Shown: positions 19,393 to 27,195 of the stretch, one piece after another
How the letters are laid out: each line of letters starts with the position of its first letter
Numbering within the stretch: the first letter of the stretch is position 1
From: Cellvibrionaceae bacterium
GTDB taxonomy: Bacteria > Pseudomonadota > Gammaproteobacteria > Pseudomonadales > Cellvibrionaceae
Direction: 5' to 3'
Assembly (NCBI GenBank): GCA_030597965.1
Contig: JAUVQU010000002.1
Coordinates: 1-35,857 of the forward strand
Length of the DNA: 35,857 bases
Translations under genes and position numbers: made by a program
The notes under the pieces: model-generated
Told to the model about the DNA's origin: nothing
Databases searched by the model: none
Seen by the model: only the letters and a program-made list of their open reading frames with translations

Positions 19393-20979
19393 TTAACTGG
19401 TTAGAGAGCGCTTAAGATTTTTCCAGTCTTCTCTTAAATCCGAGTCTTCTTCCCGAAGAGACTTAATCTTGCGACACGCATGCAAAACCGTTGTGTGATC
19501 TCGTCCACCAAACGCTTCACCAATCTCTGGCAAACTGCGGGTGGTTAACTCTTTTGCCAGTGCCATCGCCATTTGTCGTGGTCGTGCGACTGAGCGACTA
19601 CGGCGCTTAGAGAGTAATTCACTGAGTTTTATTTTAAAGTATTCAGCAACCACCCGCTGAATATTATCTATGCTCACCTGCTTATCTTGCAGCGCCAACA
19701 AATCTTTTAAGGCTTCGCGTACCAACTGTACATCAATGTCACGAACAGTAAATTTCGCATAGGCAATAACACGCTTTAGCGCCCCTTCCAGCTCTCGCAC
19801 ATTCGATCGTATACGCTGAGCAATAAAGAAAGCTGCATCATGGGACAGGTCGATACGCGCCTGCTCCGCTTTTTTCATTAAGATGGCTACACGGGTTTCT
19901 AATTCCGGCGGCTCTACCGCTACCGTCAAACCCCAGCCAAAACGACTCTTTAGGCGCTCTTCTAAGCCATTAATTTCCTTCGGGTAACGATCACAAGTCA
20001 AAATGATCTGCTGTCCACCTTCCAGCAACGCATTAAAGGTGTGGAAAAACTCTTCCTGGGAGCGTTCTTTGCCCGCAAAAAATTGAATATCATCAATCAA
20101 CAAAGCATCCACTGAACGGTAATAACGCTTAAAATCGTTAATGGCGTTGAGCTGTAACGCTTTTACCATATCAGCAACAAAGCGCTCAGAATGTAGATAC
20201 ACCACCTTAGCGTTCGGGTTTTTCTTAACCAGAGCATTACCCACAGCGTGCATCAAATGGGTCTTACCCAAGCCAACGCCACCATATATAAAGAGTGGGT
20301 TATATGAACCGCCAGGGTTTTCGGCAACCTGCTGCGCCGCAGCCAAACCTAACTGATTAGATTTACCGCCTACAAAACTATTAAAATCAAAACTCTCATT
20401 AAGGTAGTTGCGGTGCTTAAGCCCACCTCGAACCTCAACGGTAGATGCACGCTCTTTCTTAGCACCCATCACAGAGGCTGGTACATGCAGCGCCTTACCG
20501 GCAGCAATAGTCTGCTGCTCATCGGGTGTCGCGGTAACAATTCTTGATGTTGTTGCACTGGTTATAGCCGATGTGGCACTAGCGCCATCCATAACCAACG
20601 CACCAGCCTCATCTAAAACAGGGCCATTACTATTCTGTTTTGTATGGCTGTTTTGAGCGGGTATTGCAGCTTGCAATTCAGAGTATTCAACTACAGGTGG
20701 CTGCTGCACAGTTCGACGCTGATAGCGTACAGGCTGTTGGGAGGTCACCTTCACTTCTACAGAAAGGCTGGTATCGGCGTTTTGCAACACCAATTCAGAG
20801 ATACGATCAAAAAATTTATCGTTGACCCAATCCATTACAAAGCGATTAGGCGCCTGCAGGGATAAGACTGACGTTACCGAATCATCGACCTTGAGGGGAC
20901 GAATCCAAGTATTAAATTGTTGGGCTGGTAGCTCATCACGCAAACTATCGACACACTTTTTCCAAACGGACGCTGGCAA
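19393..20979 (-). CDS. dnaA: Chromosomal replication initiator DnaA
   Basis: AAA+ protein that binds 9-mer DnaA boxes and melts the origin. The 528 residues contain domain I (about 1-80, [10 protein letters not shown] and the hydrophobic helicase-loading surface). A long Gln/Ala/Thr-rich linker domain II (about 82-190) follows. Domain III has Walker A GGVGLGKT (233-240) and Walker [10 protein letters not shown]. Domain IV has the DnaA-box-reading motif [14 protein letters not shown]. The excess over E. coli (467) lies in domain II. The start is TTG, preceded by GAGGG 7 bases upstream; no ATG fits the conserved N-terminus. It reads away from rpmH across a 526-bp gap with DnaA boxes, so autoregulation is likely. 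Confidence 0.98.
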
Positions 20980-21246
20980 TGTTTTCCCTCACAAGGAGCT
21001 GATATCTTTAAAAGTAAAAATTATTTTTATTGAAACGATTATGCAAGCAGACCTGCCTGTAAGCCGCGTAATTTTATTATGTGAAGCCACAACAAATGTG
21101 TGAACAACTTCCGCTTAAAGATTATTTAATAAGTCGTCAAAAACAGGCTGTGTAAAACTTACTGCTTATTGTAATATCAGTGGATTAAGTTATCCACAAA
21201 AAACTTAATTGCATCGCACATTTTTATAAAAAACTAATAAAATCAA

Positions 21247-21280
21247 CAAGTTAAAATAAATCGCTGCTTATTTTAACTTG
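21247..21280. repeat. 13-bp perfect inverted repeat
   Basis: CAAGTTAAAATAA (21247-21259) and TTATTTTAACTTG (21268-21280) are perfect complements around an 8-nt loop. It is too AT-rich and lacks a U-tract for a good terminator. It lies between two DnaA boxes. Confidence 0.8.
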
Positions 21281-21403
21281 CATGAAAAGAAAAGAAAAAC
21301 TCCACTTTCTGCAGGCGTCTGTTGATAAGTCTGTGATTAAGTTGGATATAAGATGTGGATTTAACGTGGTTATAATTAATTTACATATAAAGAGGCAAAA
21401 GGA

Positions 21404-21432
21404 TTGCACTAATCCCTTAAAATCTATAAAAT
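21404..21432 (+). promoter_or_regulatory. Predicted rpmH operon promoter
   Basis: TTGCAC (21404-21409) and TAAAAT (21427-21432) are separated by 17 bp and lie about 75 bp upstream of rpmH. The same stretch can fold: AAAGAGGC (21389-21396) pairs with GCCTCTTT (21436-21443), with GGATT/AATCC inside and six T residues after. It could act as an attenuator if transcription began further upstream. Confidence 0.5.
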
Positions 21433-21505
21433 TCGGCCTCTTTTTTGCGCACCCTCATTATTGTGAATGGTGCAAATATATATTTTAATTCGGCAGGTTA
21501 GTCCA

Positions 21506-21640
21506 ATGAAAAGAACATTTCAGCCAAGTACTCTAAAACGTGCTCGTACCCACGGCTTCCGTGCCCGTATGGCAACCAAAGGCGGCCGTAGGATCCTAGC
21601 TCGTCGTCGCACTAAAGGTCGTAAAGAGCTATCAGCATAA
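21506..21640 (+). CDS. rpmH: 50S ribosomal protein L34
   Basis: Small basic ribosomal protein of 44 residues, the standard length. It begins [18 protein letters not shown] and continues with [17 protein letters not shown], which is diagnostic for L34. It is the first gene of the rpmH-rnpA-yidD-yidC run. The stop codon lies in the loop of a stem-loop formed by the last codons and the bases just after them. Confidence 0.98.
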
Positions 21641-25905: not shown

Positions 25906-26169
25906 TTACTCATAGTGAGCCCAAAGCCGCAGAATTTTGATTGCTTTTTCTTCTTCTAGTACTTGATATACCAAACGATGCTGGATATTGATTCTGCGAG
26001 AATATGCTCCCGCTAAATCCCCAACTAATTTCTCGTATGGTGGAGGGTTTTGAAAAGGATTACTCTCAATAGTGCGTAACAATTTCTGGGCTTTATCCTT
26101 TAGTCCAGACGACGCCAATTTACGGGCGTCTTTTTGGGCTTGCTTAGTGTAATAGACTTTCCAAGTCAC
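25906..26169 (-). CDS. yoeB: YoeB/Txe-family toxin (mRNA interferase)
   Basis: Predicted ribosome-dependent mRNA endonuclease of the RelE superfamily, Txe/YoeB branch. Taking GTG at 26169 as start gives 87 residues. The expected catalytic positions are present: Glu46 (YEKL), Arg65 (HRLVYQV) and C-terminal His85-Tyr86, like E. coli YoeB Glu46, Arg65, His83 and Tyr84. The SRRINIQHRLVY block is family-typical. One extra Glu follows the terminal Tyr. The GTG overlaps the antitoxin stop (GTGA); a TTG three bases earlier is also possible, and AGGAG serves either. The gene appears intact and probably active. It is convergent with mnmE. Confidence 0.92.
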   Translation of the reverse strand: MTWKVYYTKQAQKDARKLASSGLKDKAQKLLRTIESNPFQNPPPYEKLVGDLAGAYSRRINIQHRLVYQVLEEEKAIKILRLWAHYE

Positions 26170-26408
26170 CAATCAAGCTCCTGATCGCACTCATCAAGCA
26201 CAGCATCCATGCCTTCCCGAATTGATTCGCGCATACCTGGAATTGATAAGAGGTGCAGAGTCTCATTTACGGCATTCCAGTCCTCTTCAGCCAATAGTAC
26301 GGCGTTACCTCTTTTTCCAGTAATAACAATAGGTTGATGACTGGTAGAGGTTTCATCTATCAGTGTGTAGAGCTTGGAACGAGCTTCTGTTGCATTAAGT
26401 GTAGTCAT
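26166..26408 (-). CDS. yefM: YefM/Phd-family antitoxin
   Basis: Predicted antitoxin that binds and neutralises the adjacent YoeB-like toxin and represses its own promoter. The 80 residues show the family N-terminal fold for DNA binding and dimerisation (MTTLNATEARSKLYTLID, then HQPIVITGKRGNAVLLAEEDW) and an acidic C-terminal tail (DAVLDECDQELDW) suited to wrapping the toxin. GGAGG lies 6 bases before the ATG. It precedes and overlaps the toxin gene by four bases, the usual order for type II modules. Upstream is a promoter with two CGTACG palindromes. Confidence 0.94.
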   Translation of the reverse strand: MTTLNATEARSKLYTLIDETSTSHQPIVITGKRGNAVLLAEEDWNAVNETLHLLSIPGMRESIREGMDAVLDECDQELDW

Positions 26409-26428
26409 GGGTCACCTCCGACCCACCA

Positions 26429-26457
26429 AGCGTACGCATCAGCGTACGTTATGTCAA
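26429..26457 (-). promoter_or_regulatory. Promoter and operator of the toxin-antitoxin pair
   Basis: On the minus strand a perfect TTGACA (26457-26452) is followed after 17 bp by TACGCT (26434-26429). Two copies of AGCGTACG (26429-26436 and 26441-26448) put CGTACG palindromes 12 bp apart, inside the spacer and -10. In the E. coli yefM-yoeB operator two palindromes with TGTACA cores are also spaced by 12 bp, so repression by the antitoxin complex is likely. Confidence 0.75.
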
Positions 26458-26458
26458 T

Positions 26459-27195
26459 ATGCTAGTGCTGGGTGACTATAACACCGTAAACAGGGGCTGA
26501 CTTTAGCTGATCCCTGCATGCTTTACCTTGTGAATTAGCATTGTTATTGGGGCTGTTCGTGCCGTTGTGCCCGCAACAGCTCTATCAATCGCGATTGTTT
26601 ATACCAACTCATCCTGCCCTTCTAGATAAATTACGTTATCTAGAAGGGCCCAAAAAATAAAGTTATCCACAGAAAAAACTGCCAAATCCTCTAAAAATCA
26701 CAGACTTCGCAAAGGTTATTAACACTCTTTCACAGGTTTATCCCCTAACCTACTGATTTTCATTGTTTTTAAGGTCTTAAAATCGAAGCTTGTGAATAAC
26801 TATCGTATAAACCATAGAGTCTGTACTGGACAAAAATGTTAATAACCCTGATTTCTAAAAAAAGACGCTTTTATCCACATTTCATACTCAGGTTTTTATC
26901 AACAATTGATCAGGAAATACGCAAAAAATACGGACTTTATAAGTGCTACAACCTATTGATTTATATATTTTTAATATGGTTATCCACTGAAAACAGGCTC
27001 AGTAACTATAACAACAATAATTAACTTATATATATACATACATATATTTATTTACTTATTAATTAATAATATTAAAAAAAGCTTCGTTTATTTTTTGTAC
27101 AACCATCCTCCCACAACATATAATGCTCGCCCTTTTAAATTTGCCTGTATCTGTAATGGGAATAGGCTCAGTAACAGACAGTAGTGAGACATCCT
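26459..27195. other. oriC: Gene-free region with candidate oriC
   Basis: About 740 bp without a credible gene. From 26616 it holds a 14-bp-stem hairpin and DnaA-box-like 9-mers: TTATCCACA at 26663-26671 and 26871-26879, TTATTCACA on the minus strand at 26791-26799, TTATCAACA at 26896-26904 and TTATCCACT at 26980-26988. An extremely AT-rich tract (about 27000-27082) follows that could be the unwinding element. The position next to mnmG matches oriC in enterics and Vibrio. Dam sites (GATC) are few. The segment before 26616 shows only a weak GCTGTT/AACAGC repeat. Confidence 0.7.
26616..26649. repeat. Long perfect hairpin beside the oriC candidate
   Basis: GCCCTTCTAGATAA (26616-26629) and TTATCTAGAAGGGC (26636-26649) form a perfect 14-bp stem around a 6-nt loop. 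Neither strand has a U-tract after it, so it is not a normal terminator. It ends 13 bp before the first DnaA box. Confidence 0.85.

Follow-up and report, generated by a model that had tools for sequence, protein, structure and literature searches.

The DNA analysed here (the window) is 35,857 nucleotides long and constitutes one entire contig of a 2.29-Mb Cellvibrionaceae draft genome in 260 contigs, whose DnaA has as its best named match that of Microbulbifer marinus (69% in the DnaA comparison). On the minus strand the order is gyrB, recF, dnaN and dnaA, followed by the dnaA-rpmH gap; to the right of this gap lie rpmH, rnpA, yidD, yidC and mnmE, a YoeB/YefM-like toxin-antitoxin pair and a second gap, beyond which mnmG, rsmG, parA, parB and the atp genes occupy the plus strand. 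The two gaps are 5.5 kb apart, and between them are the five core genes and the toxin-antitoxin pair. An Rfam search returned no match. For comparison, both gaps were taken from each member of a set of 36 (34 family genomes, M. marinus and the window itself). The features in and around the dnaA-rpmH gap are as follows.

19,393–20,979, minus strand: dnaA, with a TTG start (TIGR00362, 614 bits)
20,980–21,505, no strand: dnaA-rpmH divergent intergenic control region, from gene boundaries, boxes and box enrichment
21,099, minus strand: weak DnaA-box-like sequence TTGTTCACA
21,149, minus strand: weak DnaA-box-like sequence TTTTACACA
21,168–21,196, minus strand: predicted dnaA promoter, TGGATA (21,196–21,191), 17 bp, TACAAT (21,173–21,168), from comparison of relatives
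21,190–21,198, plus strand: box A, exact DnaA box TTATCCACA, also the −35 region of the predicted dnaA promoter
21,241–21,253, plus strand: putative IHF-like site AATCAACAAGTTA between A and B, a full consensus match, called from sequence only
21,320–21,340, minus strand: box pair B1 (TTATCAACA, 21,320–21,328) and B2 (TTAATCACA, at 21,332), in a 12-bp register
21,343–21,373, minus strand: weaker repeats extending the B array (offsets 23, 34 and 45), from the family consensus and weak in the window's genome
21,404–21,432, plus strand: candidate promoter for rpmH (TTGCAC-17-TAAAAT), lying outside the A-B module, from its position and comparable promoters in relatives
21,506–21,640, plus strand: rpmH (L34), from sequence

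The original prediction had placed a perfect DnaA box, a second box and several weaker ones in an AT-rich gap between divergent genes, and each of these elements was recovered. Positions 20,980–21,505 are exactly the interval between dnaA (−) and rpmH (+), 68% AT compared with 53% across the window (72% between A and B), and they contain the perfect box A together with B1 and the three weaker boxes, all four on the minus strand. This interval thus does carry a cluster of DnaA boxes of the kind expected at oriC: five box-like 9-mers at no more than one mismatch versus 0.98 expected (P=0.0015, 2000 dinucleotide shuffles), one of them exact (P=0.047 in dinucleotide shuffles). The prediction would have failed had the boxes been missing from close relatives, and on inspection they proved to be conserved, with dnaA gaps among the 36 genomes usually holding two or three exact boxes versus approximately 0.03 expected. 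The DnaA boxes of the dnaA-rpmH gap are genuine and conserved.

The conserved arrangement consists of exact box A followed by a reverse box pair in an exact 12-bp register, the latter found in 28 of 36 genomes against 0.05 expected from shuffles; any alternative register in the 10–30 bp range occurs in at most 8 of the 36. In the family consensus weaker repeats follow at offsets 23, 34 and 45, making a phased head-to-tail array. Across the family, 132 ± 16 bp separates A from B, compared with a variation of 96 bp in the distance to dnaA and 65 bp in that to rpmH, and this tighter spacing argues that A and B act as a unit. M. marinus and two relatives (L039, L124 and L128) carry a different layout in the dnaA gap, with two forward exact boxes 106–108 bp apart and no reverse 12-bp pair. 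Approximately 11 of 27 genomes have an IHF-like motif with at most one mismatch 50–69 bp from box A, full-consensus sites being confined to a minority of relatives. IHF-β was detected in the genome assembly of the window, and IHF-α gave no match exceeding the cut-off, the assembly being 90% complete. A perfect 13-bp inverted repeat (CAAGTTAAAATAA / TTATTTTAACTTG, 21,247–21,280, 8-nt loop) overlaps the IHF-like site, and by eye it is not evident in the A-B intervals of relatives.

Box A also occupies a fixed place relative to dnaA. Read toward dnaA, a TANNNT hexamer stands at a constant 17-bp spacer (offset 25) from box A in 27 of 35 family genomes and in 28 of 51 other gammaproteobacterial loci, which include most Pseudomonas; among these 51 it is absent from the Enterobacteriaceae loci. 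From this fixed spacing of a −10 hexamer it follows that box A serves as the −35 element, with TGTGGATAA as the −35, and the conserved overlap of box and promoter indicates, as judged from sequence, direct autoregulation of dnaA by DnaA. It is this comparative test alone that makes the promoter credible, as a promoter scan of the dnaA-rpmH gap by itself gave matches no more frequent than in shuffles. On the opposite side of the module, relatives have their best candidate for an rpmH promoter beyond B, usually 60–160 bp to its right, and the region perhaps also controls rpmH.

The second gap, on the mnmG side, has a different composition.

26,410–27,183, no strand: predicted oriC in the mnmG-side gap, with 3 exact boxes
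26,980–27,025, plus strand: origin core, comprising R1-like box TTATCCACT, 14 nt and DnaA-trio-like TAACTATAACAACAATAATTAAC (29.5–33.7 bits)
27,000–27,096, no strand: predicted unwinding element, with the 80-mers of highest AT content in the window (90%) at 27,001–27,096

The DnaA-box cluster that had been reported on this side is likewise real, and is stronger than that of the dnaA gap, with 8 boxes at no more than one mismatch (1.4 expected) and 3 exact (0.05 expected), counts reached in 0 of 2000 shuffles. In most family genomes this gap presents, next to mnmG, a forward box, a 14-nt spacer and then trio-like repeats with an AT-rich tract, and conservation 3' of the R1 box sums to 29.9 bits over 12 genomes; after box A in the dnaA gap there is little (6.5 bits over 27 genomes). 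The toxin-antitoxin pair between mnmE and the predicted oriC (25,906–26,408) encodes a YoeB/ParE-like toxin and a YefM/Phd-like antitoxin, and in relatives the length of the mnmG-side gap varies widely, from approximately 0.6 to 4.7 kb. Given both the pair and this variable length, the gap looks like an insertion spot.

Boxes alone would give two origins in the window, and what tells an origin from a DnaA-controlled promoter is the presence of an R1-trio core and the skew of the genes lying between the candidate sites. We scored the former with an ungapped, fixed-register model of 48 positions (R1 box plus DnaA-trios) trained on 14 non-family sequences, among which the Marinobacter, Halomonadaceae and Pseudomonas origins were chosen by gene context and resemblance rather than from mapped starts, which makes them inferred origins. 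A simpler AT-step score was too noisy and was replaced by this model. The mnmG-side gap scored 29.5 bits at 26,980 versus 7.7 for the dnaA gap, with a shuffle maximum of 11.8; hence an R1 box with DnaA-trios and unwinding element was not found in 20,980–21,505. This maximum was exceeded by the mnmG-side gap in 22 of 32 family genomes and by the dnaA gap in 6 of 36, and leaving out the training groups one by one gave 21–32 and 5–7 bits for the two gaps of the window, respectively. The E. coli oriC, which was not in training, was found at its R1 box (20.7 bits), while the E. coli dnaA-rpmH gap scored −1.3. On the other hand, box A is the second-best origin-core match in the whole window (14.9 bits), which counts against a promoter-only reading. 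Being ungapped, the model misses Pseudomonas dnaA-gap cores when these are held out; inspection by eye places the start of the trio 1 nt earlier in some such cores, for example that of L040.

For strand asymmetry the informative piece is the rpmH-mnmE block, which would be leading if replication started at the dnaA-rpmH gap and lagging if it started at the mnmG-side gap. Its third-position GC skew is −0.239, close to the −0.229 of plus-strand genes on the left arm and opposite to the +0.157 of leading genes, so that the block is as strongly lagging as genes lying 10 kb more to the left. From these values the dnaA gap is estimated to account for a −0.03 share of starts (95% interval −0.34 to 0.18 by gene bootstrap), an index applied to the window only, being unstable in genomes where the lead/lag contrast is small. 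The 2-kb GC skew becomes positive only past 27 kb, and the maximum of the profile likelihood is at 28.0 kb, with 27.0 kb lying 6.2 lnL units lower and 21.25 kb 49.7 lower. The switch is accordingly at approximately 27–28 kb and not at 21 kb: the dnaA gap is 43 lnL units worse than 27.0 kb, and no leading/lagging switch occurs there. One point counts against the mnmG-side gap, namely that the best point of 28.0 kb falls outside it, 0.8 kb inside mnmG. Over the 36 genomes the rpmH-mnmE block averages −0.184, with flanks of +0.034 and −0.040, and its skew is below that of the dnaA-side genes in 35 of 36. Skew is an evolutionary average, in which a recent change would leave no sign. Pseudomonas was rejected as a positive control because its lagging glyQ and glyS share the third-position skew of leading genes. 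In SAR86 (L097, L102 and L104) the polarity of third-codon GC skew is reversed, the dnaA- and mnmG-side genes being negative and the rpmH-mnmE block positive; the block is still distinct from its flanks, as expected with an mnmG-side origin.

By these two independent tests, strand asymmetry and the origin-core model, the dnaA gap is not an origin, and oriC is predicted to be the mnmG-side gap, in the style of E. coli and Vibrio and some 5.5 kb away, where boxes, R1-trio core, AT-rich element and asymmetry switch are found together. We consider it probable that 20,980–21,505 is the control region of dnaA with oriC at the mnmG-side gap, a reading supported at the level of sequence by the boxes, the promoter overlap, the conservation of the module and the place of the switch. 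DnaA bound to box A would cover the −35 and block RNA polymerase, resulting in self-repression of dnaA, and the reverse array B, about 130 bp upstream, would provide a platform for cooperative DnaA binding. Although conjectural, an IHF-type bend between A and B could bring B onto A, and such looping might make repression responsive to both the level and the state of DnaA. Replication would start at 26,410–27,183, from its boxes, R1-type box, DnaA-trios and AT-rich unwinding element. In P. putida, dnaA was not repressed when the level of the species' own DnaA was raised (Ingmer and Atlung 1992, as relayed in PMC8203912), an account that calls for caution in assuming repression.

Two origin-like regions about 5 kb apart had originally been proposed, forming either a bipartite origin or an origin plus a site purely regulatory for dnaA. 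Both box clusters stand, yet only the mnmG-side gap shows the core and the asymmetry switch, and it is the regulatory option that our data favor, with box A acting as −35 in a conserved promoter of dnaA, in a gap devoid of an R1-trio-unwinding core. A bipartite origin, in which DnaA complexes at both gaps loop across 5.5 kb and unwinding occurs on the mnmG side, would account for the conserved box clusters in both gaps of nearly all relatives, and in E. coli rnhAB mutants oriC has been suggested to aid initiation near dnaA, perhaps through a shared DnaA platform (PMC12000880). However, in known bipartite origins the two box clusters, one of which has the unwinding element, flank a single gene and are up to approximately 2 kb apart (PMC4285127), far less than the 5.5 kb seen here; one cluster alone, that of the mnmG-side gap, has every core part, the switch lies at that gap, and the dnaA promoter explains the A-B unit, leaving a bipartite origin quite improbable.

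Somewhat less remote, while still unlikely, is a dnaA gap that fires at times or is a former origin as in Pseudomonas. In P. aeruginosa, two elements capable of autonomous replication are reported, one of them essential (PMC4403523), and the oriC of this species lies next to dnaA (PMC3642087); in E. coli, the dnaA region serves as a DnaA-dependent alternative origin after UV in rnhAB mutants (PMC12000880), and the A-B interval is 72% AT. Set against this are the missing trio/unwinding core and a share of starts of −0.03, with a 95% upper bound of 0.18. An accessory or conditional origin role is nevertheless conceivable for the dnaA gap. The constrained spacing of boxes around an IHF-like site would also suit a datA/DARS-like locus, for DnaA titration or nucleotide switching, whose position at dnaA is fortuitous, but a promoter-embedded box A with a fixed −10 explains the conservation with no extra role, and we give this explanation very little credence.

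A control region at dnaA is of an ordinary and already known kind; the A-B module and its contrast with Pseudomonas are modestly new. As in the E. coli dnaA promoter region, the dnaA-rpmH gap contains an exact box that has the same orientation and lies away from oriC (PMC8203912). Unlike the E. coli box, which lies between two promoters, box A is itself the −35, and the window has a phased reverse array some 130 bp off, whereas enteric loci lack the offset-25 hexamer. The 26,410–27,183 interval resembles the mnmG-side oriC of E. coli and Vibrio in its R1 box, 14-nt spacer, trios and AT-rich element beside mnmG, with dnaA and oriC about 6 kb apart, a distance that in E. coli is about 42 kb (PMC12000880). 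With the Pseudomonas oriC in the dnaA-rpmH gap, the region shares its gene context, the use of box A as the −35 of dnaA, and reverse boxes 85–147 bp on, but lacks the rpmH-proximal forward box and AT-rich trio-like sequence of Pseudomonas. Most Pseudomonas species have 4–6 exact boxes in this gap and Stutzerimonas 1–2, compared with 1 in the window and mostly 2–3 in the family.

If the promoter reading is true, dnaA genes that control themselves directly, by way of a DnaA box acting as −35, are widespread outside enteric bacteria, and the exact site of the origin differs among relatives that share gene order, making relocation testable. As a control region of known kind, the dnaA gap could have latent origin capacity. 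In Pseudomonas (L040–L063) an R1 box and trio/AT-rich sequence occur in both gaps, often sharing an AAGCTTT motif, as if they were alternative or duplicated origin cores, and origin relocation is for this reason worth a dedicated study. Our tentative and rather doubtful suggestion is that, within this one gene neighborhood, either gap can be the site of oriC (core-like in both for Pseudomonas, in the mnmG-side gap only for the present family and in the dnaA gap for Marinobacter-like bacteria), that the origin hopped approximately 5 kb in the evolution of the Pseudomonadales, and that the dnaA gap here is still a DnaA platform able to fire or assist under stress. One relative with the same gene order (L125, genome G043) carries 5 exact boxes and a 25.9-bit origin-core match in its dnaA gap, and its rpmH-mnmE block has no clear lagging bias; a dnaA-side origin is possible in this relative.
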